21,518 nucleotides of DNA from contig NW_003126887.1 in NCBI RefSeq assembly GCF_000003605.2, positions 333,630-355,147 on the forward strand. Reading direction: 5' to 3'. A model generated the notes under the pieces. It saw only the letters and a program-made list of their open reading frames with translations. It was not told the origin of the DNA and searched no databases. This DNA is from Saccoglossus kowalevskii. Taxonomy: Eukaryota > Hemichordata > Enteropneusta > Harrimaniidae. A program made the translations under genes and the position numbers. Positions 762 to 17,944 of the stretch are shown here, piece by piece. Within the stretch, counting starts at the first letter, position 1. Every line of letters starts with the position of its first letter.

Positions 762-1140
762 GTGAACAATGACGATGACTTTGCTATACCGTACTGGGAC
801 TGGAGTGGTGCACCCAACTGTGAGATTTGTACTGAAGAATATATGGGGAAGAATTCGCCTTCTCCGCCTCATAACATCCTAGGCGAGTTTTCTGGATGGA
901 AGGATCTATGCTCTGATTTTCAACGTTTCCATGATATTGGCTTGATTTGTAGTAACAACGAGGTTTCGAATCTGCCGAGTATTACACGAAATCCCGGTGG
1001 TGACAGTCTTTTAGACGAGTTGCCTTCTCTAGAAGCACTTTATTATACGTTGAGTATGACTGATTATGATACAAGACCGTTGGTACCAACATTGAATGTG
1101 TCGATTACCTCTCCTTGTAGTTTTCGGAATATTCTAGAAG
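762..1140 (+). CDS. TYR-A exon equivalent to TYR-B exon 2 (central tyrosinase core)
   Basis: This 379-nt exon runs from a TTCTAG acceptor to a GTATAG donor and ends in phase 1. It encodes PYWDW, the CEIC pair and the conserved SFRNILEG end found in animal TYR proteins. It differs from the TYR-B copy by only about four bases over its first roughly 195 nt, the first 85 or so being identical. A loop of about 65 nt is then strongly diverged, and similarity is high again to the exon end. Confidence 0.93.
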
Positions 1141-4100
1141 GTATAGATGTATGTTATTCCTCGTATTTAACAATATATTCGTCAAAAGATGTAGATATGT
1201 AAACCTTGTCATTATTTAAATATGTATCTTTAAACAATTAAATGTAATAATTCAATTTGTCATTAATAATTGTATTTCCAGGATTTGCTGATTCGGAAAG
1301 ACAGAGTGGTCTGTTCACACCATTTGGATCACAATCACATAACCAAGTACATAGTTACATGAACGGTACAATGGGTGTCGTGGAAACGTCTCCAAATGAC
1401 CCTATGTTCTGGCTGCATCACTCCAATGTAGATAGAATTATGGAGAAATGGATACGACGGTAAGTGTTTCTCTCGTCTTCACTACATACTTAATAATGCT
1501 TTGCCATACATGTGTATGCATTCATGTGGTATGATTGAGGACTATATGTAATCAATATAGCACAAACAAATCACGTACGTTATCTCTATAGTGAACAAAA
1601 CAATACAATACTGGTCGAGTGAGGACGTCGTTTTTAACGCTCTGTCCGTTTTGCCAGGTTTTGGCGTCAGTAATACTGTGGCGGCATGTCTCATGGGTTG
1701 ATATGGTCTCTGCGCTGGCATTGACATAGGATATTTACACGTGCAAGTCGAACCTCTGAAAATTGTTTTATGTACTGTACTCCATTTGTTACCAGACCAC
1801 TGTATTACCAACGCCTTAGCTAACCACGGGCGTGTTATGAGCACGGTGGGAGCAATCCCACGTGGGTGTAAAAACAGCACTAAAACATGTAAAGTCTGTT
1901 TCACTGCCTGATTTATTTTCACTTACAAAATCTGAAAATGTCTGGCTTATTGCCTATCACTTTTCAAATACACATTGTTTGCGTTTAATCTACAACAGAT
2001 ATGAAACAGGTGAAAGATAATTTGAATGACACTGACGAAGTCGATGACATAACAGATAAAAATGTCACCGGTTATTGTTATACAAAATAATGAGACCCAT
2101 GTTGTAACATATAACACTGAAACAGATATGGTTACTAGTCTTTCTAAGAATACGGCTAACAAACGCGTGCGTTCGAATTCGCAAGTTAACAGAGAAAAAC
2201 AAAATGATGACAACACAAAAGATGAAAATATGACTGAAATAATTTTCAAAAAGCGCAAAGATGGAAATGAAATAGAAATTGATGAACGAAATAGCCTTTT
2301 CAATCCCCTTCGCCCTCCAAGCCCCTTTCACACTACTCGCTACTTTCTGAAGTCCCTCTTGATTTAAGAGGATAAACGCATCAGTCATAAGACCTTTGTT
2401 ACACATCAGATCACACTGAATGTAGCGATAATGAAGGGTCTACGGTCTACTATATTTCAACGCATACTAGCAGTGATGAAACAATCATATCAAATGGAAA
2501 TATCAAAGAGATGTCGGTGTCCGCGTAGACTTTCATACAGTCTCTTTTATTTATTTTTCTCAATAAAATAAAATATGAGAGTGTATAAATGGCGAAAGTC
2601 GGGTTACTGTTTACTTCGCGATAACCCGGCTTTCGCCATTTACACTCATATATAAAAATTCATTGAAAAATAAGACTCAAAAATAAAAACTGTATTCAAG
2701 TTTAGTGACCACACCGCACCCTCAAAAGTGCTTTGAATGTGTATGCACCCGTTAACGGCGCTGAACGTATGAAATGTGTTACTAAGCTTAACTAACAATT
2801 TATCAGTTATTTGAATTATGAAAGGAGATTTTAACTGAACTACTCAATGGCAATTTTCAATCGAAATATTAAGTGAAGGTTTAAAACTGATTGTAAATAT
2901 TCACTTGTTATGAAACAATTGCCTAGGTTGAACAATACGTGGTCAATGGAGAGCGCGCTGTGACATATCCAGGATAACGCACTTCGCTTTTTTCTATAAA
3001 TATGTCAAGTGCCGGTAAACTTGCTGGATTTCTTCTTGCACTTGGATATATATGTAATATTACATATGTCAGTGTCATTTCCGTTTCCATATGGTGTGAA
3101 ACTTTGAAGGTGTTCCATTATAGGTTTGCAATACAAACAGTGGTTAGGTCACTTAGGAATTTGAATGTCTGTAGACATAAGATATTGTTCAAATGGTCAA
3201 TCTATTGTTATGAAAAACGGGAACACTGAACATGAAAGCAGAGTAAATGTCAGTAAATATGTTCACGATTTATTAGCGCAATGATGGAATTCAAATAGAC
3301 TAATACAACTTACCCAGTACCTAGTTTAATGGTATCTAATTTTACATAGTACTAACTATTGTTTTCCGTAGTTACAACGCAAACACGACCCACTATCCGA
3401 AGGACAGCACACCAGTAGGACACGATGCGGATTCATATATGGTACCATTTTTCCCAGTAATGACAAATGGAGAATTCCTGCAGAAATCACAAGTATTCGG
3501 ATACACATACGACAATATAGATTCACAAGGTGTGAATATAAAACTTTGTTCAGTTATGCGACAGCATCGATTGTATAGCATTTTAATCTACAATTAGTTG
3601 TCCAATAGATTTAATATTGTTATGTGACATTGTTACTGAATATACATTATAAATTCTGTTTTATACAAAGGATATTATTTCACGTCGCATTTATTTCTAT
3701 TTTAATCACAGGCAAACCGGTTAATAGACGTGAGAGGATAAGAGAGGGGCGTGCCATTAATGGTATGCAAGAATGTGTAGTGCCAATACTTGATAACGAT
3801 CTATATTGTAAGTATTATTGATGACGTCATTTGTTTGTATTCATCTATGTGATATTAATGGTACCAATTGTATTTTATTATGTATTTTGTATTATGTATT
3901 TTATTATTTATGTTATTATGTATTACGTATTTTATTAGGTATTTTATTATGTAGTTTATTAAATTTGGATTTCCTATTGAATAGTTTTTAGTAGCGACCC
4001 TAAGGTGATGGAGGCGGAAGTAAGCGCTATTTTGAGTATGGCACCTTGGAAGGCCTTTCCAATGCAAAGTAAGTAATAATTTTTGTGTGAAAAATTCTGA

Positions 4101-4602
4101 TATCTAATATGCAAATTAGACTATCTATCGCAATATTATATTATGACTGTTATCGAAATATATGTGTTTAATTTCATAAGTGTGATAACAGCATATTGAT
4201 GTGTATCTATGGAAATAACGAAACAAGACATTTAACTACAGCTTTTGTGGGTAGTACTGGTGACTACGAATATGAACGGTTGCAGTCAGACGGGCAAAGA
4301 CCCAATTATGGTAATGAACGAACATGTTACGCTTATACACTAATAAATAAGTCATATTGTTTTGTTCGTGGTCGTTCGTCGTTCGGTTATTTAATATTTG
4401 TTTGTTTGTTTGTTTGTTTGATTCTTTAGATTATTGATTATGTTTTACTGTTACAGATAAAGACAGAACGCCAATAGCAGGAATGATGATCAGTGAAGTT
4501 CTCGTAGTTGGTCTACTTGCCGTTTCTGTCGTGTTTATCGCTACAAAGGGACGAACTGTTTACCGCCGTTATAAGGGTTATCAACGTATAACAGAAAATT
4601 AA
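762..4602 (+). CDS. TYR-A: membrane-anchored tyrosinase, 3' seven exons (5' part outside window)
   Basis: Spliced model: 762-1140, 1282-1459, 3372-3529, 3712-3807, 3985-4068, 4242-4310, 4457-4602. It joins in frame to 1110 nt (369 residues plus TAA). The product belongs to the type-3 copper tyrosinase family, which oxidises phenols or catechols to quinones. Visible features are the PYWDW motif, the CuB site HNQVH followed by NGTM, then NDPMFWLHH, and the block SYMVPFFPV typical of animal TYR/TYRP proteins. All three CuB histidines are present, and Asn follows the first one, as in active tyrosinases. The C-terminus is one hydrophobic helix followed by a basic tail with YQRI. The signal peptide, EGF-like and CuA exons must lie left of position 1, because the first exon starts at a phase-0 acceptor (CTAG before GTG). 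Exon lengths and phases match the complete paralogue at 12333-17944. The acceptor at 3985 is the weakest junction. Family assignment is secure; activity and tissue are inferred. Confidence 0.93.
1282..1459 (+). CDS. TYR-A CuB exon, copper ligands intact
   Basis: This 178-nt exon (acceptor TTCCAG, donor GTAAGT) enters in phase 1 and leaves in phase 2. It encodes the CuB centre: two histidines in HNQVH, and the third in FWLHHSNVD. This is the canonical TYR arrangement. The corresponding TYR-B exon lacks the first of these histidines. Confidence 0.93.
2000..2520 (+). pseudogene. Unidentified broken coding-like segment inside a TYR-A intron
   Basis: Three reading-frame pieces follow one another. 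One starts at about 2000 (MKQVKDNLNDTDEVDD...). A second covers 2062-2367 in another frame and is rich in Asn, Lys, Asp and Glu, with an apparent KKRK basic cluster. A third ends at about 2529 (...SDNEGSTVYYISTHTSSDE...). The composition looks like a hydrophilic protein rather than random AT-rich DNA, but frame changes and stops interrupt it. I do not recognise the family. It may be a decayed mobile-element ORF or a retroposed fragment; it could also be chance. Confidence 0.25.
2536..2694. mobile_element. Palindromic MITE, Tc1/mariner-like ends
   Basis: This is a long imperfect inverted repeat. The inner arms (about 2573-2606 and 2622-2651) are nearly identical with a loop of about 15 nt, and weaker pairing extends outward. 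The outer ends read TA-CAGT and ACTG-TA, which fits a TA target duplication with CAGT-starting terminal repeats, the Tc1/mariner pattern. It has no coding capacity. It would fold into a hairpin of about 155 nt in the TYR-A pre-mRNA. Confidence 0.6.
3866..3962. repeat. AT-rich simple repeat (TATTTTATTATG-like units)
   Basis: Degenerate repetition of TATTTTATTATG and TATTATG words within a TYR-A intron, just upstream of the doubtful acceptor at 3985. This low-complexity tract may have displaced or weakened that exon's splice signals. Confidence 0.6.
3985..4068 (+). CDS. TYR-A linker exon with a poorly supported acceptor
   Basis: The frame of the conserved part (AIL...PWKAF) is clear and matches the TYR-B exon at 16557-16625. 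The donor GTAAGT at 4069 is good. The only AG that keeps frame with the previous exon is at 3983-3984, which adds five residues (FFSSD region) compared with TYR-B. The AGs at 3990-3991 and 3993-3994 both lead to an in-frame TGA. Either the exon has grown by 15 nt, or this copy has a splice or frame defect here. Confidence 0.6.
4397..4420. repeat. (TTTG)6 microsatellite
   Basis: Six perfect TTTG units lie in the last TYR-A intron, a short distance upstream of the terminal exon. Confidence 0.85.
4457..4602 (+). CDS. TYR-A terminal exon: transmembrane helix and cytosolic tail
   Basis: The exon follows a TTACAG acceptor and ends at TAA. It encodes about 20 hydrophobic residues (from MMISEVLVV to VVFIA), then KGRTVYRRYKGYQRITEN. 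The helix is followed by basic residues and a YxxI tail, as in a type I membrane protein. The tail pattern KGR-VY-RY-GYQ-I is shared with TYR-B although the helix itself has diverged. Confidence 0.88.
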
Positions 4603-5708: not shown

Positions 5709-6092
5709 CTAGCAAACAAAAAACTCAAATTGTTTACGAAATAAAATAGTGCTATACGAAATACAAATCTAGATGAGTTGAGTAACTAATTCTATGATGT
5801 TTAGGTGTTAAATTGTTATTTAAAGGATTGCATCGCACAATTTTTGACATATCATATAGCTGTGCGAAGGTATTGTGACTGCCGAGTAATAGAAGTCAAT
5901 GTGATTCCGTACTGCAGAAAATACACATTCCTGACAACACTATCAATAAATATATGTATTCCAGTCTGTTTTCATAAATGCAAAACATATTCGCGCAAGT
6001 GCGTTTCGTACGACCCGGACGCTTGATTATACTTTGCTCGATTCCATATGTTTTATAAAGCGCGTCGAAAAACAGTTTTATGTGAGTGTCCA

Positions 6093-6463
6093 CGAACCTG
6101 CATCTGTGCTTTGTGAATCACAAACACTGACTCAAACGCTGCATACGAACCTGCATCTATGCTTTGTGAATCACAAACACTGTCTCAAACACTGCATACG
6201 AACCTGCATCTATGCTTTGTGAATCACAAACACTGACTCAAACGCTGCATACGAACCTGCATCTATGCTTTGTGGATCACAAACACTGTCTCAAACACTG
6301 CATACGAACCTGCATCTATGCTTTGTGGATCACAAACACTGACTCAAACACTGCATACGAACCTGCATCTATGCTTTGTGAATTCCAAACACTGACTCAA
6401 ACACTGCATACGAACCTGCATCTATGCTTTGTGGATCACAAACACTGACTCAAACATTGCATA
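6093..6463. repeat. Minisatellite: seven copies of a 53-bp unit
   Basis: Units begin CGAACCTGCATCTATGCTTT at 6093, 6146, 6199, 6252, 6305, 6358 and 6411. They are near-identical, with single-base variants such as GAATCAC/GGATCAC and ACTGACTC/ACTGTCTC. Because 53 is not a multiple of three, each unit is read in a new frame. The open frames here are therefore by-products, not a repeat protein. The first (CATCTGTG) and last (ACATTGCATA) units carry edge variants, as is usual for slippage or unequal crossover arrays. Confidence 0.95.
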
Positions 6464-7480: not shown

Positions 7481-9429
7481 CTGACAAAAGAAAAACGTAA
7501 AAATTGCAGTTAATCTTGCTGCGGTTGATTTTAAAGCGGAGGAGTCTTCACGTGCGCATGCGTCAGATGGCCATGGCGTGTCATTGTTTTCAAACAAGCG
7601 TCTACCATGCGTTTTTAGCGTGTGTTGTTATCGTCGCAAGGGACTTCCTCGCGTGCGCAGGTGACGACCCTCCCGATTTAATATTAAATCACTGATGGAC
7701 GTACAACCAGATCATACACAACACATTCACACATTTTTTTTCTAATATAAAATTGTATACTTAACTCACCATACGTTACATCCATTATCTGACGGAAAAG
7801 AAGAACCATGTTCATGATGACCTTCAGGTCCATTGCAATCCTTGGGAGGTTTCACTAGCAGAAAACAGAAACAATGATATAATAATCGACATAGTTAACT
7901 GCGGTAACGCGCCTCGCAACTGAAATGAGTGAAACCAAAAAGGGAGTCACCCTAGTGTTCAAAATGTTGAAACATGAATTTTGAGAATTAAATTTGCTTT
8001 AATAACCAGAATAAAATACACGTGGTATTACATGATATATCGACAATATTCGATATGAAACTTACCACCAATAGGTTGTAAACACATTGAAGCACATCCG
8101 TTAGAGCAGCATTTCAGTTCGTTGTCGCATTGAATGTCACTGTCACATTCATGGATACACAGAACTCGGGTCAAGTCGCTGGGTGGTTTCAGATTTGGAC
8201 ACTTGCCTGGTTTTTCTATTAAATTATACATAACGTCAGAGAATCGCATTGAACATTGATAAACATTGCAGCACAACAGATGATTCACATTCAATCATAC
8301 AGTCTCGTAATCGGTATTAAAATACGCTTACCATTACAGTCGACTTTCTCTCCATCGTAAAAGAATTCAGCATTGCATCCGCCACAGTAATTTGCTACAC
8401 ATTCGGCGTAGGGATACAACGGGCATTCTTCAACTGTACAAGGATCAGCAAAGCAGTTAACAATTGTACCACCGGGACAAGGATTGCCTGTGTACAAAAA
8501 CTATTATTCAGCAACAACAAAAATAATACCATGGTTTTATCTAGTTCTAAGTTTTAAGATGAATATTGAGTTCCGTGGTTGATTTGTTTAATAACATGAA
8601 ATCATTCAATACAATAATGATATATAAACTACAATGCTTTCATCAAGTTCCAAATCTCTTATTGAGATGAGTACTTTGTGGCATTTTATATTGTGCAGTG
8701 ACAATTAAATGCATTTCTATTAAATTAGGCAATTACCACCACAATTTTTTATAGTATCGAGGGAGGGACAATAAACGCTATTTTTAATCACGTTCAAAAT
8801 TCATATCCAATTTATATTAGCTAATAAAAAAAAAACATTTTAACATAAACCGATATACAAATCAACATATTAGTATTCCAGTTGACTTTCTCTGTCTATC
8901 AATACAGAATTCAGCATTTCATCTATCATAATGACTTTCTATCTAGTGTCTGACGCAGTGGGTAATCAGTGATCTGGCGGGAATCAGAGAAAAGGTAAAA
9001 AATAGTATGACCAGGAAAAGACAATTGTCAATGAACGCAAAATACCATACTTTTATTTAAATCATATCATATCATATCTTCATATCTTGTTTTGGCAATA
9101 TAATTTAAATCATTGGTGTTATACTAGGTATGTCAGTGCTCCTTCTTTTTTTACCTCCATGTACTAGGTAAGAACGCTAGTGAATACACATGAATACCCA
9201 TCTATTGTCACCTACCTGCATTCTGTCTCTTCGCTATGTCAACAGCTGGTGCCTAAAACAAAATAAGTACACAAATAAAAATATTATAATGTTAAAAAGT
9301 ATTCTTATTATGAAACCATTCTTATCTTTCAATTCTCAAATAACATATATATTATATATCTATAGATGTACTTACTGTTGCGGCGGCGACAAAGACAACG
9401 ACGACGAGAACGGAAAGTATTCGAAACAT
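7426..9429 (-). CDS. Secreted three-module Cys-rich protein: 8-Cys domain, WAP domain, pacifastin/VWC-like domain
   Basis: Minus-strand exons in order: 9376-9429, 9216-9252, 8332-8487, 8066-8215, 7770-7854, 7426-7480. They join to 537 nt (178 residues plus TAA), and all junctions are GT-AG. Residues 1-18 form a signal peptide (MFRILSVLVVVVFVAAAT), followed by a linker with AKRQ. Residues 34-81 hold eight Cys with CVANYCGGCNA, a domain I associate with invertebrate shell or matrix WAP proteins. Residues 88-127 are a textbook WAP four-disulfide core (C-x13-C-x3-C-x5-C-x5-CC-x3-C-x3-C). Residues 139-175 carry CNVCFCNDGRTMCTKRAC, the pacifastin inhibitor pattern, although the first Cys spacing (18) is longer than usual, so VWC-like is an alternative. 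Likely roles are protease inhibition or extracellular matrix. Domain exons 3 and 4 are phase 1-1 modules, consistent with exon shuffling. Domain calls are firm; function is inferred. Confidence 0.9.
7531..7681. mobile_element. TTAA-ended MITE, copy 1
   Basis: A 151-bp element between TTAA and TTAA with imperfect terminal inverted repeats of about 16 bp (TTAAAGCGGAGGAGTC versus TTAAATCGGGAGGGTC). It shares long blocks with the element at 13121-13256, including TGCGCATGCGTCAG, ATTGTTT and CAAACAAGCGTCTACC. TTAA ends point to a piggyBac-type family. It lies inside the last intron of the WAP gene and encodes nothing. The TGCGCATGCG core resembles an NRF-1 site. Confidence 0.75.
7700..7769. other. 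WAP gene intron sequence flanking exon 5
   Basis: Short intron remainder between the MITE and exon 5. It holds the donor GTGAGT (minus strand) and loosely resembles the flanks of the two decayed exon copies at 5326-5715. Confidence 0.4.
7770..7854 (-). CDS. WAP gene exon 5: first half of pacifastin/VWC-like domain
   Basis: Encodes DCNGPEGHHEHGSSFPSDNG then CNV, and ends with two bases of a Cys codon before GTGAGT. Reading on without splicing would give Trp and then TGA at once. Splicing instead completes the conserved CNxCxC motif with the next exon, so the splice reading is preferred. Two decayed duplicates lie further along the minus strand at 5634-5708 and 5423-5469. Confidence 0.82.
8066..8215 (-). 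CDS. WAP gene exon 4: WAP four-disulfide core
   Basis: A phase 1-1 exon encoding one complete WAP domain. Cysteines at 88, 102, 106, 112, 118, 119, 123 and 127 have the standard spacing, including the adjacent CC pair in LKCCSNGC. One domain per exon is typical of this family. Confidence 0.9.
8332..8487 (-). CDS. WAP gene exon 3: 8-Cys matrix-type domain
   Basis: A phase 1-1 exon encoding residues 31-82 with cysteines at 34, 42, 47, 52, 60, 65, 68 and 81. The strings FADPCTVEECP and YCGGCNAEFF are the recognisable core. Acceptor GTACACAG and donor GTAAGC are good. A decayed copy of its 3' part lies at 8876-8943. Confidence 0.88.
8876..8943 (-). pseudogene. Decayed duplicate of WAP gene exon 3
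   Basis: The plus-strand string GACTTTCTCT...GAATTCAGCAT, followed by a CATC-rich stretch, aligns with 8336-8400 inside the intact exon (GACTTTCTCT...GAATTCAGCAT then TGCATC). On the minus strand the CGGCNAEF region is recognisable, but a TGA interrupts it and cysteine codons are lost. It is a relic of an exon duplication within the same gene. Confidence 0.6.
9058..9082. repeat. ATCAT-type simple repeat
   Basis: Repeated ATCAT/ATATC words (AATCATATCATATCATATC) in WAP gene intron 2. Confidence 0.6.
9376..9429 (-). CDS. WAP gene exon 1: signal peptide
   Basis: Eighteen codons from ATG (9429-9427) give a short basic start and a Val-rich hydrophobic core ending AAAT, a classic secretory signal. 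The exon ends in phase 0 before GTAAG. A TATA box 40 nt upstream supports this ATG as the start. Confidence 0.88.
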
Positions 9430-9479: not shown

Positions 9480-12332
9480 TGTATCGATACAAGTGTGACG
9501 TGGCAGGTTAAAGTTCAAATAATCTGTGAATAATAATATTAATATTAATATTAATGGTATGTTTCACTGGACCTGAAAATACATGAATAATAGATATGTT
9601 TACTCAGCAATGATTAAAAAACAGCCTTACTTCACTTTATTCAAACTATTAGAAAAATCCAATTATCATTCGGAGAACGAAATTGCCACAGAAAGAAACA
9701 AACTTGAGAAACAATATCAGAAATAAATTTGAATTTATCAGTGAGTAGATATATTCAACATAGAAATGTAAATTTTGTCATTAAAATTACCAATAAAACA
9801 CTATTAAATATAAAAAAAAGAATTTCCTCTTTAAAATATTCTCTGTTTCTCCTTTTCAAAAGCTCAACACGTGTATTTTAGTGTAGATAAATACATTACT
9901 ATTTGAGTATTAGTTTTTTAACTAAAATTATGTAAATGTTTGTTAAAATAATATCGACCATACCTAACGCTTTCGTTGGTAGGTGTATGTTTAAATACTC
10001 GCTGACTAAACTCCCTCACCTACTCATACACTCGTACTTATGTAATAGTGTTAGTAACCGAATGTTCTACGCCTACACATATACAAATCTGTCAACACTG
10101 TCTTTGATGGCAAACATTTCATCAGTGCCATTATCCCTGGATACAATTAGGCATATGGCATTTTCGTAAATGTAAATTTACCTAATTACACGTTATTCGA
10201 TGGGATGATATTATTGTTTATATGGTAATGGCAGTAAATCCCATATGGTATATAATCTCGGTGCAACAAAAGTATTCAATTCATCTTTATAAATACTTAA
10301 AAATAATTTCATTATTCAAACCGAAGCGAGAGGTTTCTATTGAGTTAGATTGGAACGTTTCCAAATGACGTCGTTGCGCCCTTGTTCGCTGATTGGTCGA
10401 TTGGTTTGATTCAACTGCCATTTAAAGTGCACCATGGTCTCCAGAGGGAAAACTATGAAGGGCTGAACCTCTCTTTCATAGCCTTTCACTTAAAATGATG
10501 TTAGTTCGTATGAATATACACCTGCGATTGTTAAAATGTACCAATAATCAATTTTAAAAAAAACGAAATTACTTGCCGCCACTGTACCAATGTTGGATAA
10601 TATGTCTAGACTCCTGGTGAGTGTTCCACGGTTTTCTTCTCATGTGTGTCAGAATACGTTCAATCAACATGTTGAGTATCAATATCGGTAACACTGAGAA
10701 GTTCCTTGACAATTCACATGAAGTCATCAGTTCGAGCGAATCAAGTGTAACGATTCAAAAATAACGTATTATTATCGGATTTGTTGCAGTCTTTGTGTCA
10801 CGTTTATATTTGTACCTGTTCTCAAACTAATTTATATGAGAATCGCTGGAAGTGTGCTCCGAAATGTCGCCACCGTGTCACCTGTACGTCGTTCACGACA
10901 TTGTAGTTTCGAAAATATTACATCCCATAAAAATAAAACACGAAGGTACTGTTGATTAGATGGGACAACGGGTGTACTTTTGATAATAATTTAATATTTT
11001 TCAGTAGTGTCATTGTGCGACTAGTTCCATATTTATTAGTGTTGTGGTGACAACAATCAATTCTTCGAACAATATTGTTTATTTATGTAAAAGTTGATAC
11101 ACTTGAGTAATTAAGTTTGAATTAATTGTGCCTGAAAAAAGTGTGGTAGTGTGCTTTATGTTGTGGAATGATAAGATTGGATACCATGATGATTGGGTTA
11201 GGTATAAGCAATGTATTTTAAAGTTACAACTGTGTATTCGTTCATCATTTAAAACGGCCTTCATTTCATCAAAAAGGTCTTCGTCACCAGAGGGCGCTTT
11301 CAAGCACCACTTTCAACAAAGTCACACTCGTTAGTGAATTGATAGCGTTGGCCTCTCATCCGGGGTATGGGGCGATGGCACATTGTGAAAACGGAAACGA
11401 AAGATTAAATATTAAAACTAGTCAAAAACGACCTAAATAAGCCAAAATTAAACCAAGACTGATAAGTTTCAGTATATTCATGGCGACGTTTTCTCAAACA
11501 AATATTTAAAAAATGTTATCGTCCAATGTTATTCTTCGAGGTTCAAAAGTTGAAAAGTTCAAGTACTTTCCAAATTATATACGTAAAATTAAATAACTCA
11601 ATGAAATTTAAGAACAATTACAAATTGCATTTGGGGGGAGATTTGAGTGCATTGTTAAATTAAAGAATTATTAAATCTACCTTTTTATCAATAATTTGTT
11701 TTTTAGTCGTATTTATTGGACTGAAAACCTTTTAAACTAAGTGACATCTACAAAATAAATGAATGCAGAAATCCCCAAATAGATCATTATGCATAAATGT
11801 CGTCCCGTACAAATACTTGTTTATTATGGCGTGATGCCATACCTCAAAATCGGTAATTAAAATGTAAATAAAATAAATGAATGTTTATTTGATACTAAAT
11901 GTAATGTAGTTGGCTAATTACATGTATAAGTGTATTCAGACTAATTTATTCCTATATGTCTACTTTTGCCGTGACGGTCTTTTGAGTGATATGTAAGCTA
12001 CTATAACTGAAAAACGCCACAACGCCCGGATGACAAACTGTTTTGTACATGATAAAATTTCAACTTGAAGATTGCCGGGTTAGCAAATGTCTAATCTCAC
12101 TTTTACGTCAGATTAAAAAGAGTAATTTAGGATGCATTTCATTGCCACGGGAACCCCTTCAGCCATTACAGTATTGGTATTGTAATTTAGTATAATATTA
12201 AAATTAAAATCTGAACGTATTTAATGGTATATGTTTAAGTCATTATCCTTGTAAGCGCAAGCCGAGAGCTACGCTCACCTTTCAACTTTGCACTTTGATG
12301 CCAAACAAAAGGGCATATAATAAATAAATAAA
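9480..12332. other. Divergent intergenic region between the WAP gene and TYR-B
   Basis: About 2.85 kb of AT-rich DNA between two head-to-head genes; it must hold both promoters. Visible elements are an (ATT)n-like stretch (AATATTAATATTAATATT) at 9533-9554 and a TGACGTC CRE-like site near 10366 followed by two ATTGG (inverted CCAAT) motifs near 10392-10405. I find no gene: the open frames at 9936-10169 and 11079-11334 have no family resemblance. Confidence 0.5.
12316..12326 (+). promoter_or_regulatory. TATA-like string just before the TYR-B ATG
   Basis: TATAATAAATA lies only about 7-17 nt before the ATG at 12333, which itself has a good context (AAAATGG). If this were the working TATA box, transcription would begin inside the coding region, so it is more likely AT-rich leader sequence. 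The true promoter, or a 5'UTR exon, would then be upstream. Confidence 0.25.
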
Positions 12333-13010
12333 ATGGCGGCCGACTTTCAACTTCGTACAGTACTATTAAGCACCTTGTTCTTCAAATGCAGTGGCCAGTT
12401 CCCGAAGGTATGTGTTTCACCAGAATCACTGTCAAGTAAGGAATGCTGTCCACAACCAGTTGGTTATGACTCGAAATGTGGAGGACCTGGTAGAGGGGCG
12501 TGTGTCGATCTGTCGCCACCAAAAGCCGACGACTCTTCGCAATTCGGTGGTGATCTCGACCGTTTGGCGTGGCCGAGTACATTCTTTACACGTGCGTGTA
12601 AGTGTGACGGTAATTTTGACGGTTATGACTGTAGTCAATGCAAGTTTGGTTATAAAGGAACGGAATGCGACAAAGAAAATCGTGTGACCAGACGAAATAT
12701 CTTGTCAATGTCTCAGTCTGAAGTTAAGAAGTTCCGATCGTACTTATTAAATGCTAAAGACAAAATAAGTGACTATCAGATAGCGACAAGTCTTTATATC
12801 GATATGTTAAATGGTGATAACCCACTCTTTAATAATGTAAACGAGTATGATCGTTTTGTGTGGAACCACTATTATGCAGCGCGAGAAAATATTCGACGAC
12901 CTGCCGGTGTGAATGACGGTAGCACTATTATCGATTTTGCGCACGCTGGACCCGCCTTCTTAACCTGGCACCGGGCGTATCTACTCTTATTTGAACGCAT
13001 GATACAACAG
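12333..13010 (+). CDS. TYR-B exon 1: signal peptide, EGF-like region, CuA site
   Basis: 226 codons ending in phase 0 at MIQQ. A hydrophobic leader (TVLLSTLFF) precedes a likely cleavage near CSG-QFPK. QFPKVCVSPESLSSKECCP and the GRGAC string match the TYR N-terminal Cys-rich region. CKCDGNFDGYDCSQCKFGYK is EGF-like. CuA histidines lie in WNHYY, DFAHAGPAF and TWHRAYL. The donor is CAG|GCAAGT. Reading through it would add 16 residues (to TGA at 13061) and truncate the enzyme before CuB. Confidence 0.93.
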
Positions 13011-16000
13011 GCAAGTATAGAGGGCATTGACCTCTTCTTTGGTTTTATGACCCGGGAATGATATTCAGTTAGTACGCGTGAATAATTTAGGAGTCAATTA
13101 ATTGATACGTTTTGTTATAATTAAAGCGGGGGTGTCGCCGCCTGCGCATGCGTCAGTGGCCATAGCGTGTTATTGTTTACAAACAAGCGTCTACCCATGA
13201 GCCTTAGCGTTGTTAGCTTGTGTTGTTATCATTGCTTGATGACCCTCTCGCTTTAAGCTGTCAAATTATTCCCGGTATTATTCTTATACTTGTTGTTAAT
13301 ACCTGATTCTAACAAACTCATGGATAATTACGATATGGAATTACAGTATAATATTGTGTTTATTGGATCCCAGGTCCTGTCACGGTCCCATATATGGGAC
13401 ATTAGAAATTAGCCAGGATATATTGTCTACCTACTTTACAAATATAATCAAACACACAGGATATAACTGAACACCTTTTAATTAATCTTTTAAATATATT
13501 TATTTGACAAACTTTTTTTTCATGTATCTTGTACATTTCCGATGTGTTCTATCGATTTAAAAACAATTAAAAAAATGTTGGCTGTGTATTGCTGATACAA
13601 GTATTTTGAGGTCTAATAGAATCGGGAAATCAAATATACCTAGAATTTATTCAAAACAAGTTACTTTTGGACGGGATCCAATGGAAAGTAAGTCCTACAG
13701 GATGGGGAAAATAAGCAGGTGGTCCAATGGGAACCACTAGAACTGTTCTTATTGATTATTATAGGGTCTGTGATTTGTGATTGCATTATGAACACTTTGT
13801 AAATATCTTGTAACACAACAGACTTTTAATTTGATGAACTCACATAAAATCTAATTTTTCTAATAATATACTAAGTACACTATTACACTTCTTTGCTAGT
13901 AAAAGTTTTCCTAAATCATGAAAAAATATGTTCTGGTGTATAACAGTTTTTTTTAACAATGGTCTATAGGAAGATACCAAACCATCGATACAATTTTTAA
14001 AAAGGCACTATAATGCAAAACTGCATTATATGGAAATAATAAGATTACAATTTGAAAATGTTTATGAATATAGATATTAAATATGGTAATGTACCAGACT
14101 TGGTATAAGGTGATGTCGATATACACATAAGATATCAACATATATATTATAATTCCAGAATTATTATAACATTTTCTGTATGTGTCATATTATTTAGTGT
14201 TTTACTGTGACATATTTATTATTATGTTAATCATATATGTAATATTTATCTCTAAAGGTGAACAATGACGATGACTTTGCTATACCGTACTGGGACTGGA
14301 GTGGTGCACCCAACTGTGAGATTTGTACTGAAGAATATATGGGAGAAAATTCGCCTTCTCCGCCTCATAACATCCTAGGCGAGTTTTCTGGATGGAAGGA
14401 TCTATGCTCTGATTTTCAACGTTTCCATGACATTGGCTTGATTTGTAGTAATGTCGACAATTCGAATCTGCCGAGTATTACAAGACATCCTGGTAGTAAC
14501 AAGGTGTTGGACGAGTTGCCTTCTCTAGACGCACTTTACTATACGTTGAGTATGACTGATTACGATACAAGACCGTTGGTACCAACATTGAATGTGTCGA
14601 TTTCCTCTCATTGTAGCTTTCGGAATATTCTAGAAGGTATTACAAATATTAAACAATGTATATAGCGCTTTATTTTATGTGTCCTTTATACGAGATGTTG
14701 AAATGTTCGAGTTACGAACATCGACTTACGAAAACATCTAGTTACAGAAATGACCACACCCATATATTTGAAACCACGCCCACTTCTGTGGTACCACGCC
14801 CAAATTGTAACTCGATGTTCAATTAACAGTTGACAGAGTTATGGTCAACATATATTTTGGTGTTTGTTGAACGTTCACATCCAGTAACTCGAACATTAAA
14901 TAACAGTTAATCAAATTTCGAGGTACGGGCAACATTTATTTTTTGTTTTGTTTAACTTTCAAATTTCGAGTTAGTAACTCGAAATTTAATTAACAGTTAA
15001 CGAAAGTTTGAGTTGTTGTTTAATGTCTGCATTCATTTTAATTAACAGTAAACGTAACTACGAGTTACGGCAACATAGATTGTTGTTATTATTCAAACAT
15101 CCACATACCGTCTTTCATTTTTGACCACGCAATAAGCTTGCTTGTTTCAACTTGTCAACGTCCAATGGCGAGTGTATTTCAGTTTCGCTATGTGTTTGCA
15201 GGATTTGCCGATTCGGAAAGACAAACTGGTCTGTTCGCACCATTTGGTTTACAATCACAGAATCGAGTACATAGTTATCTGAACGGTACAATGGGAATTG
15301 TGGCATCGTCTCCAAATGACCCTATGTTCTGGCTACATCACTCCAATGTGGATAGAATTATGGAGAAATGGATACGACGGTTTGTAAATACCAAGAGTTT
15401 AAAATATGATTCCTTCGCTTATTTTACTCATTGTATGTATTGGTGTTTACACTGATTTGACACAATCTGCAATGACACTGATTGATAATTTTAATCATAT
15501 TGGCAGTGGACAGTTTCAGACCATGACCAAGCACGTTCTTTTAAACGTATGTGTTAGAGTGAAATATAATCTACCCCGGTATCCAGAAAAGCAAAACGAT
15601 GAGTAAATAAAACATTTTTCTAATTGTCTTGTAACCCAACATTACGACGTTAACTATAGCTATTTTGTGTGTTCCCTGTAGTTACAATGTCAATACAAAC
15701 CACTATCCACCAAAGGACAGCACACCTGTAGGACAAGAAGCTGATTCCTATATGGTACCATTCTTTCCAGTAATGAAAAATGGAGAATTCCTGCAGAAAT
15801 CACAAGTATTCGGATATACATACGACAATGTGGATTCAGAAGGTGCGAATATACGTATTCTCCTATCAATCGGGACAACATCGACTTATTAGTTGTTATA
15901 TTTTTTTATTTCTTTTAACATGATCCCAACCAAAAATGGTTTGTAAATTAACATTATATATTTACCATTCTTGACCAACTACATTTGCCAATGGCTTGTA

Positions 16001-17944
16001 GGCATATTTGCTATGTCTTTGTCAAATGATAACCACTCACACTGTAGTTGTATTGATTGATAACAGGTAAACCTATAAGTGCGCTTGAAAAAGAAAGAGA
16101 AGATCAATCCATTGATAGAATGCAAGGATGCGTTCTTTCTCCCTTGGATGCAGATCTACAGCGTAAGTTAATGCCATCATTGCTGATTTCGAGCTGTGTT
16201 TTTGCTTACATCCATATAAATACATTGGTGCTGATGAAATGTCACATTTGTTAAATTTTTTGGAAAATTGTTATATAGGCTTACATACATTATCACTAAC
16301 TTTCTTATTATAATTCAGTACATAAATAAATAAGAAGATAGACATTCTCAACGTTATTAAATTAAATATAATTGTACATTCTAATTGAATATATTGAATA
16401 ACCAACACGTTTACGAGTATACGTTAACCTGTGGTTAACATTATTTTTTTAAACATGTGTACAATGATTTTCAAATGTGCGTAGTGTTTGATTCGACGTT
16501 TTCTACTTCTGTGCTCAAAATGTGTGTACTTTCATTATTATTTTCTTCACATAAAGTTGACCTTGGCATTCCTGAGATAACCGCAATATTGAATTTGAAA
16601 CCTTGGAAAGCGTTGAAAATGAAAAGTAAGTACCTCTTGAAGTGATGTGTTGTTAATGTGCATATTTCAAACATCCATATATACCGTAATATTTTCACAA
16701 TTTATTTGTTTGTTTCACTATGGAAACTGTGCACTTACCCAATATACCAAATGTATTGAAATACCAGTAATTATTAATTTCGGTCGAATGATTCTGTTTC
16801 AATTTGTCGAGCCATTCCCAAGTTATTCATTACCGGACATGCATACCGATAATCATATTACAATATTTATTGAAATGCATACAACCAGCTGGAACGATTG
16901 TCTTAGACGAACTTTTATTCTACTGATCTGTCGTCTTTTTACAAAACATTACAATAGTTGTTGTACTTCACCAATACATGATGGGATAAAACTGAACTTA
17001 TTGTTTCAGATGTGAACAAAAATGATGGCAACGATGTGTTTAAAACGTTCAACCATCCATCAGCTGATCAGCAACACAGCGACGGTAATTATCGAATACA
17101 GTATATTAATTACATATATCAATGTGCGTGATTCAGACGATTCGTCGTTTTTGTGTATACTGATACACTCTAGTGAAATTGAATTACTAGTAGTCCCTGA
17201 AATTAGAATAATGAGTCGATCCGAAAGTGAAAATCAGAGACAATTTAGCTGATGATTACTATAAAGATGGTTGATGTTGATTACTCTAACTGTACGATGT
17301 CACACTACATGTAGTTATCAAAAGTGTCGATAAACATGCGCCGCCCATTTCGTCAGGTGTTCTGAAAGGGCTGAGTATGTTTGTCGTATATAAATTACAA
17401 GACAATTTCCGCTTTGAAGAGTTTACACAAGAATATTATAGAAAAAAGATATATACATTGTATTTAAGCTTGTTATTTGTCTTGAATTATGACTGAAATA
17501 AGCTTAAATGAGATTACAAACTATGTAGTGTTCAACAACTTACGTATGAACAGTAACTTTAATAAATATGATTTTATTTGGTAAAAATATTGTATTTTCC
17601 TGCATAAAAACGAAAGAATTTCACAATGTCAAAAATGGAAAATCTTTATCGCAGTGTTGATTGTGCATGACCAAGCTAACAAACTGATACCAAAACATGC
17701 CTAGCAGCAACATCCTATCAAACTAAAGTTTAGAATCAAATATTTGCTACTTGCTATTTTACTTATATTTAATTTATTTTTAGGTGCAAGAAAGCCGCCA
17801 ACAGGAACCATATCTGTCGCAGTCGTTGTGATAGTCCTACTCATTGCTTCATCAGCGTTCATCTCTATAAAGGGTCGCAATGTGTATCATCGATATAGGG
17901 GTTATCAACCCATTAGAGAAATGGACACGGATAAGAAATTGTAA
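12333..17944 (+). CDS. TYR-B: complete membrane-anchored tyrosinase paralogue with an altered CuB site
   Basis: Exons: 12333-13010, 14258-14636, 15202-15379, 15682-15842, 16067-16162, 16557-16625, 17010-17084, 17784-17944. They join to 1797 nt (598 residues plus TAA). Domains: signal peptide 1-21; Cys-rich and EGF-like region about 27-112; tyrosinase domain about 120-450; linker; transmembrane helix about 555-574; 24-residue cytosolic tail with YQPI at 586-589. CuA histidines are at 179, 204 and 213. In CuB, H376 and H399 are present but the first ligand is Gln372 (SQNRVH). The layout is that of vertebrate-type TYR/TYRP, a melanosome-lumen oxidase of phenols. Without one copper ligand, ordinary oxidase activity is doubtful, so a TYRP-like or regulatory role is possible. 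The first intron uses a GC donor. The gene is the tandem paralogue of 762-4602. Confidence 0.93.
13011..14257. other. TYR-B intron 1 (GC-AG type)
   Basis: The intron starts GCAAGT and ends CTCTAAAG. It contains a TTAA-ended MITE about 110 bp from its start and a 16-bp perfect palindrome, GTCCCATATATGGGAC, at 13385-13400. The palindrome includes an exact CArG box, CCATATATGG. No coding content was seen. Confidence 0.75.
13121..13256. mobile_element. TTAA-ended MITE, copy 2
   Basis: 136 bp, TTAA at both ends, terminal repeats TTAAAGCGGGGGTGTC versus TTAAAGCGAGAGGGTC (13 of 16 alike). It is homologous to 7531-7681 in the same orientation, with shared internal blocks TGCGCATGCGTCAG and CAAACAAGCGTCTACC. 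It has no ORF. Both copies lie within introns of adjacent genes. Confidence 0.75.
14258..14636 (+). CDS. TYR-B exon 2: central tyrosinase core
   Basis: 379 nt, residues 227-352, with PYWDW at 236-240 and a phase-1 end (donor GTATTA). The length equals that of the TYR-A exon at 762-1140. Nearly the whole sequence is conserved except a hypervariable loop of about 65 nt after LICSN. Confidence 0.93.
14637..15201. other. TYR-B intron 2 with repeated TAACTCG/ATTAACAGTTA words
   Basis: From about 14690 to 15070 the words TAACTCGA, CGAGTTA and ATTAACAGTTAA recur in both orientations with diverged spacers, as in an old tandem or inverted array. A 27-bp perfect palindrome sits at 14961-14987. No coding content. 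Confidence 0.55.
14961..14987. repeat. 27-bp perfect palindrome
   Basis: Arms AAATTTCGAGTTA and TAACTCGAAATTT surround a single central G. It is the centre of the repeated TAACTCG array in TYR-B intron 2 and may be the fused ends of a small inverted-repeat element. Confidence 0.8.
15202..15379 (+). CDS. TYR-B exon 3: CuB site with His-to-Gln change
   Basis: Acceptor TTTGCAG; 178 nt as in TYR-A. Codons read SQNRVH where TYR-A has SHNQVH, so ligand 1 of CuB (residue 372) is Gln. The other two, H376 and H399 in FWLHHSNVD, are kept. The donor is GTTTGT, much weaker than the GTAAGT of TYR-A, but it is the only site that keeps frame with the next exon. Confidence 0.9.
16626..17009. other. TYR-B intron 6, nothing further seen
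   Basis: 384 bp between GTAAGT and TTGTTTCAG. A 122-codon open frame (16647-17015) covers it, but it has no family resemblance and is treated as chance. Confidence 0.6.
17085..17783. other. TYR-B intron 7, nothing further seen
   Basis: About 700 bp between GTAATT and TTTTTAG. AT-rich with no recognised repeat. It is much larger than the equivalent TYR-A intron (4311-4456, 146 bp). Confidence 0.6.
17784..17944 (+). CDS. TYR-B exon 8: transmembrane helix and tail
   Basis: After the acceptor TTTTTAG it encodes 53 residues: a short Pro/Thr stem, a Val/Ile/Leu-rich helix (ISVAVVVIVLLIASSAF), then KGRNVYHRYRGYQPI and an acidic/basic end. YQPI fits the YxxPhi endosomal/lysosomal sorting motif, which would suit delivery to a melanosome-like organelle. 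Confidence 0.9.

Follow-up and report, generated by a model that had tools for sequence, protein, structure and literature searches.

A tandem tyrosinase paralogue in Saccoglossus kowalevskii with glutamine in place of a CuB copper-ligand histidine

A competent type-3 copper protein, one with oxidase activity and two coppers, requires six copper-ligand histidines, which gamma-subclass ('type C') animal tyrosinases arrange in two patterns, H1(n)-H2(8)-H3 at CuA and H1(3)-H2(n)-H3 at CuB. One account describes linked clusters of gamma-tyrosinase genes in amphioxus, and zinc in the tyrosinase-related protein TYRP2 that is coordinated by three conserved histidines (PMC3658974). Replacement of the first CuB histidine (HisB1) is known from engineered proteins. 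Asn or Gln at HisB1 of Streptomyces SgMelC2 leaves 50-90% of the copper content but removes all activity, Asn at each of the six ligands of the fungal enzyme AoMelO causes complete activity loss, and a fungal CuB position is described as stabilized by a seventh histidine (PMC11608171). Human TYR made in bacteria with the same ligand changed (H363A) retains 23% of its tyrosine-hydroxylating and 15% of its dopa-oxidizing activity (PMC7144311). No case of natural HisB1 loss was found among the papers listed by searches of a mostly open-access literature.

Here we describe two linked tyrosinase genes, TYR-A and TYR-B, of which TYR-B has a glutamine at HisB1. The window, meaning the whole stretch of DNA that was analysed (21,518 nt), is the end of contig C1942 in a 572-Mb assembly. 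TYR-B (12333-17944, + strand) has eight exons of 678, 379, 178, 161, 96, 69, 75 and 161 nt and encodes 598 residues, in a frame that stays open without a stop through all 598 codons. Its features are as follows.

12333..13010, + strand: TYR-B exon 1, with the start, a hydrophobic N-terminus, a Cys-rich/EGF-laminin-like part and the CuA ligands H179, H204 and H213
14258..14636, + strand: TYR-B exon 2, with 92% DNA identity to TYR-A exon 2 (the aligned stretch takes in 13 and 4 nt of flank)
15202..15379, + strand: TYR-B exon 3, the CuB exon, with Q372 (ligand lost), H376, H398 and H399
15258..15260, + strand: TYR-B codon CAG for Gln372, replacing the first CuB histidine
15380..15385, + strand: TYR-B exon 3 splice donor GTTTGT, weak-looking
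15682..15842, + strand: TYR-B exon 4, which holds H430Q (GHN motif changed to GQE)
15734..15736, + strand: TYR-B codon CAA for Gln430, a position that is His in TYR-A, TYR-C and TYRP1 and is not a copper ligand
16067..16162, + strand: TYR-B exon 5
16557..16625, + strand: TYR-B exon 6
17010..17084, + strand: TYR-B exon 7
17784..17944, + strand: TYR-B exon 8, with a hydrophobic membrane span (by eye), a short tail and the stop

The tyrosinase domain (PF00264) was matched in TYR-B residues 170-411 at 140 bits, against a curated cut-off of 22.6 (E 1.8e-40), and an EGF_laminin match at residues 85-112 scored 23.5 bits against a cut-off of 21. All 16 Cys columns common to TYR-A and TYR-C are also Cys in TYR-B; ten of them lie at residues 27-112, in the Cys-rich region upstream of the tyrosinase domain. 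Two hydrophobic segments, one N-terminal and one encoded by exon 8, were picked out by eye in the translation and are a candidate signal peptide and a candidate membrane span. CuA follows the gamma-subclass pattern, with eight residues between H204 and H213. TYR-B is best read as a gamma-class (membrane-bound) tyrosinase paralogue, in which membrane anchoring is presumed.

TYR-A exons 2-8 lie at 762-4602 of the window.

762..1140, + strand: TYR-A exon 2
1282..1459, + strand: TYR-A exon 3, with canonical CuB and the His codon CAT at 1338-1340
3372..3529, + strand: TYR-A exon 4
3712..3807, + strand: TYR-A exon 5, with donor GTAAGT
3985..4068, + strand: TYR-A exon 6, whose acceptor AATAG ends at 3984, in frame
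4242..4310, + strand: TYR-A exon 7
4457..4602, + strand: TYR-A exon 8, with a membrane span (by eye) and tail

The CuA exon of TYR-A is outside the window. A matching exon 1 with three CuA ligands lies at C1942:314098-314793, 18.8-19.5 kb before the window; because an N run from about 315773 to 333629 separates the two, its assignment to TYR-A is presumptive. The same GC splice donor (CAG/GCAAGT, the slash marking the exon end) follows exon 1 in TYR-B (13011) and the presumptive exon 1 of TYR-A (L007 6794). A broken TYR-A frame at exons 5/6 was considered and ruled out by an ordinary in-frame junction, with the donor at 3808 and the acceptor ending at 3984. Between the two tyrosinases, a gene on the - strand contains a WAP four-disulfide-core stretch (PF00095, E 2.2e-10) at 8028-8294, and 6092-6463 is a tandem array of seven 53-bp units with 94% matches.

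A PF00264 profile search of the assembly returned at least six exon matches (nine candidates, nine scored). They comprise exon 1 and the CuB exon of TYR-A and of TYR-B; a third tyrosinase gene, TYR-C, accounts for two more. TYR-C lies on contig C3162 (L011/L012, C3162:364560-369525), encodes 556 residues in seven exons and carries LHNQVH where the CuB motif lies. N-glycosylation sequons number 12 in TYR-C, two in TYR-B and three in TYR-A.

The Gln372 codon falls inside the span 15244-15275, where a preliminary description of this DNA had located the loss of the first CuB histidine, and stands opposite the CAT of TYR-A. That description was also right that the other ligands and the frame are intact: H179, H204, H213, H376 and H399 are present, so TYR-B keeps five of the six ligand histidines of a competent type-3 copper protein and its CuB pattern is broken at H1 alone. 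H398 and N373, the Asn after HisB1, are kept as well. Five positions of this 32-nt span differ between TYR-B and TYR-A, which identifies it as paralogue sequence. A rare allele or an assembly error at the Gln codon is improbable, although the single base itself could still be one or the other and the evidence comes from one genome with one assembled copy and long N runs near by. When the assembly was searched at the DNA level with the TYR-B CuB exon, the hits were that exon and its TYR-A counterpart at 90% (two candidates scored), and no second version of it was found.

TYR-A, TYR-C and TYRP1 all have His at column 372, the TYRP1 evidence being three alignments out of 61 matched sequences in a solved-structure search, so Gln372 is on this comparison the derived state. 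The preliminary description had allowed that a neighbouring histidine might serve as the ligand; the Gln-xxx-His376 spacing is the same in TYR-A, TYR-C and TYRP1, so no neighbouring residue has shifted into the slot, though H398 may act as a substitute ligand. Changes clustered around Q372 were not found, the densest 20-codon stretch in exons 2-4 beginning at codon 291.

The top solved-structure match for TYR-B is TYRP1 (PDB 5m8q and relatives; E 8.5e-81, residues 22-460); the 5m8q chains are listed as 5,6-dihydroxyindole-2-carboxylic acid oxidase, which we take to be human TYRP1. TYRP1 resembles TYR-B in combining a Cys-rich part with the tyrosinase layout, but it retains the column 372 histidine and the GHN histidine, both of which TYR-B has lost. 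This difference bears on a suggestion of the preliminary description, that the pair could serve as a model for how TYRP-like proteins arise. Were TYR-B TYRP-like, with its metal changed and the protein becoming a tyrosinase-related protein, the ligand histidines would be kept, whereas column 372 is not His. Tandem duplication and a membrane-bound gamma-type layout do recall the TYR/TYRP families. However, TYRP1 keeps His in this column and TYRP2 is described with three conserved His, which hold zinc (PMC3658974); on this evidence TYRPs changed metal without losing ligands. A TYRP-like metal swap is thus ruled out at the ligand level and the TYRP-like explanation as a whole is highly improbable. 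By this comparison TYR-B lost its ligand in an event separate from the one that gave rise to TYRPs, and the TYRP-like model is not supported.

A second histidine has also gone. Nine His columns are common to TYR-A and TYR-C, and two of them (372 and 430) are changed in TYR-B, the latter turning GHN into GQE. In addition, the exon 3 donor of TYR-B, GTTTGT where TYR-A has GTAAGT, is alone among the 20 donors of the three modelled genes in lacking a purine at +3. A GTAAAT at 15384, 4 nt downstream of this donor, would with the normal acceptor produce a frameshift into a stop. H430Q and the weak donor fit decay, and because the histidine is lost and the donor is the weakest-looking of the 20, early decay is a live rival explanation. 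TYR-B would then be an early pseudogene in which selection for catalysis has weakened, and in which invariant residues have been hit by missense changes and a splice site has decayed before any stop has arisen. A plain pseudogene would have its frame broken by a stop or frameshift, whereas the eight exons of TYR-B are open and its shared cysteines are complete. We regard early decay as unlikely but serious.

Measures of selection also count against decay, with qualifications. Across exons 1-4 without the signal peptide (449 codons), TYR-A and TYR-B differ with dN 0.043 and dS 0.176, giving an omega of 0.24, which indicates that the pair as a whole is under constraint. With TYR-C as outgroup, unique replacements number 20 in TYR-B and 18 in TYR-A over 539 sites (chi2 0.11), or 20 and 14 without the signal peptide, and accelerated evolution of TYR-B was not seen. 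Compared with exon 1, exons 2-4 hold an excess of B-only replacements when the signal peptide is counted (Fisher p 0.036) but not when it is left out (p 0.16), and this excess is not relied on. The preliminary description had proposed estimating dN/dS on TYR-B. A codon branch model of the three genes rejects omega_B = 1 (p 0.025 for exons 1-4, 0.029 for exons 2-4). For the same two sets of exons, omega_A = 1 is compatible with the data (p 0.60, 0.65), and omega_A and omega_B are not distinguished (p 0.21, 0.29). The branch estimates of this model are poor, with omega_A and the TYR-C branch at bounds and the TYR-C branch saturated, which weakens the p values obtained for TYR-B; constraint on TYR-B alone is thus weakly shown.

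The similarity of the two genes is distributed unevenly. BLASTN identities between TYR-A and TYR-B are 95.9, 92.4, 89.5 and 86.0% for exons 1-4, and there are two weaker alignments at exons 6 and 8 (76 and 75%). The exon alignments extend just 2-13 nt beyond exon edges, and that of exon 1 begins within the exon, downstream of the signal peptide, which has diverged. From exon 1 to exon 4, dS takes the values 0.10, 0.15, 0.29 and 0.48; exons 5, 6 and 8 give 2.4, 0.93 and 1.3, and exon 7 is saturated. The 0.29 of exon 3, against 0.10 and 0.15 for exons 1 and 2, makes the 'otherwise well-conserved exon' of the preliminary description an overstatement. The synonymous difference is 0.157 in exons 1-4 and 0.662 in exons 5-8, a gap that none of 10,000 permutations equalled; exons 1-2 have 0.113 and exons 3-4 have 0.293, a gap equalled in 5 of 10,000.

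No homology was detectable between introns 2-7 of TYR-A and TYR-B, whose best local scores fell within the shuffle range in six of six cases, in a test that catches similarity like that of exons 1-2 but not reliably divergence like that of exon 4. In controls on a 141-nt intron, mutation at 15% gave scores of 132-160, where shuffles reached at most 29; mutation at 30% gave 29-72, and at 40%, 22-50. Intron 1, which is flanked by the two most similar exons, consists largely of N in TYR-A and was judged at its edges alone. Because exons 5-8 are near synonymous saturation and introns 2-7 lack detectable homology, the pair is probably old, though exons 1-4 look young.

Synonymous-site constraint behind the similar exons was rejected, since the comparisons of TYR-A and TYR-B with TYR-C are saturated in exons 1-4. 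Raised GC3, a mark of biased gene conversion, was not found in these exons (Fisher p 0.61 and 0.76). Some results argue against similarity that stops sharply at exon edges. Among the 60-nt flanks of the exons, 4 of 14 beat shuffles at p <=0.005 and three more at p 0.015-0.05, in a test whose TYR-A edges at exons 5-6 were those of the second-best model; part of this similarity may come from splice-site composition that the two genes have in common. A non-coding stretch upstream of both first exons (L007 2316-2414 and window 11687-11784) is 80% identical over 99 columns and is a candidate dispersed repeat, untranslated exon or shared control element.

The best reading of this pattern is ectopic gene conversion that is confined mostly to exons and more pronounced where these are longer, although exon 8 departs from a pure length rule. 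Codons 196-231 of the CuA exon contain no A-B differences, a count that relies on the presumptive TYR-A exon 1, and the gradient suggests that conversion is strong over the CuA exon and weaker over the CuB exon that carries the Gln. Either Gln372 is younger than the most recent conversion of exon 3, or that conversion failed to remove it. With exons 1-4 apparently homogenized, exon similarity gives no date for the duplication and may mask decay: conversion from TYR-A could keep a dying TYR-B looking constrained, so the A-B omega is not to be over-read. The exon-limited similarity is a caution in itself, as the exons make a probably old pair look young.

Loss of HisB1 would leave CuB with two histidines, H376 and H399, possibly plus the adjacent H398, which we take, from its place next to HisB3, as the seventh histidine. 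A coupled two-copper site for O2 activation could not form properly, and CuA (H179, H204, H213) should still hold metal. By analogy with the published mutants of other tyrosinases, from which the loss of activity in TYR-B is argued, the likeliest state is one with little or no oxidase activity and a CuA still able to bind metal. 'Silenced' may be too strong a word, because human H363A keeps some activity. TYR-B would then be most useful as a folded, membrane-anchored partner, stabilizer or competitor of TYR-A and not as an oxidase; metal content, anchoring and the partner role are features that we infer. What the sequences show directly is the derived Gln372, the open frame, the five ligands and 16 cysteines retained and purifying selection on the A-B pair as a whole. 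Our tentative preference goes to this explanation, in which catalysis is lost or nearly so, the fold is kept and TYR-B may serve as a partner of TYR-A.

The explanations considered here are not strictly exclusive. TYR-B might instead be an active but altered oxidase, in which H398 or Gln372 itself holds CuB and gives weak or shifted chemistry. H398-H399 and N373 are retained, a fungal CuB position is described as stabilized by a seventh histidine (PMC11608171) and the human mutant keeps 15-23% activity (PMC7144311), but the complete loss seen with Asn/Gln at HisB1 of SgMelC2 and with Asn at any of the six AoMelO ligands (PMC11608171) makes this unlikely, though still a serious rival. A more specific form of the favoured explanation, which we consider rather unlikely, holds that TYR-B is an expressed pseudoenzyme with a single CuA metal, selectively kept beside its active twin, with conversion renewing the CuA half and the CuB exon escaping. 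If true, the array would preserve an active enzyme together with a partner that lacks a ligand.

The functional divergence proposed in the preliminary description accordingly stands in part: a ligand codon has been lost, in a derived state, in an open frame, in a pair that is constrained and without overall acceleration, but not along TYRP-like lines. Its contrast with simple decay has the open frame and the constrained pair in its favour, but H430Q at the GHN motif and the poor exon 3 donor keep decay live.

Several described systems resemble this pair in part. Mammalian mosaic pairs (DDX19A/B, TUBG1/2 and BMP8A/B) likewise have some exons homogenized between linked copies and others divergent, but their tracts take in introns and GC3 is raised in two pairs (PMC2720389), whereas the six introns examined in the TYR pair have no detectable homology and its GC3 is not elevated. 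Insect hexamerins (PMC4092376) are hemocyanin-derived proteins that lack copper-binding sites, keep a similar structure and have a new job; they are arthropod storage proteins without any copper sites, whereas TYR-B is gamma-type and lacks a single ligand of the six. Tandem type-3 copper paralogues that have lost protein parts are also known among rice PPOs (PMC12876524), but there the loss is by truncation, whereas TYR-B is full length. Gamma-subclass tyrosinases share with TYR-B an N-terminal hydrophobic stretch, a Cys-rich part, CuA/CuB and, as a candidate in TYR-B, a membrane span (PMC3658974), and differ in that the CuB H1(3)H2(n)H3 pattern is broken at H1 in TYR-B. TYR-B would show an exit from the enzyme role different from that of the TYRPs. 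Further parallels are the HisB1 Asn/Gln mutants of SgMelC2 and human H363A, in which the same ligand is changed; these were made in the laboratory and their results differ, with no activity in one and 15-23% in the other, whereas the change in TYR-B is natural. Together with its intact twin, a natural paralogue that has Gln for one ligand would offer a ready system for learning how a tyrosinase behaves without a coupled copper site.
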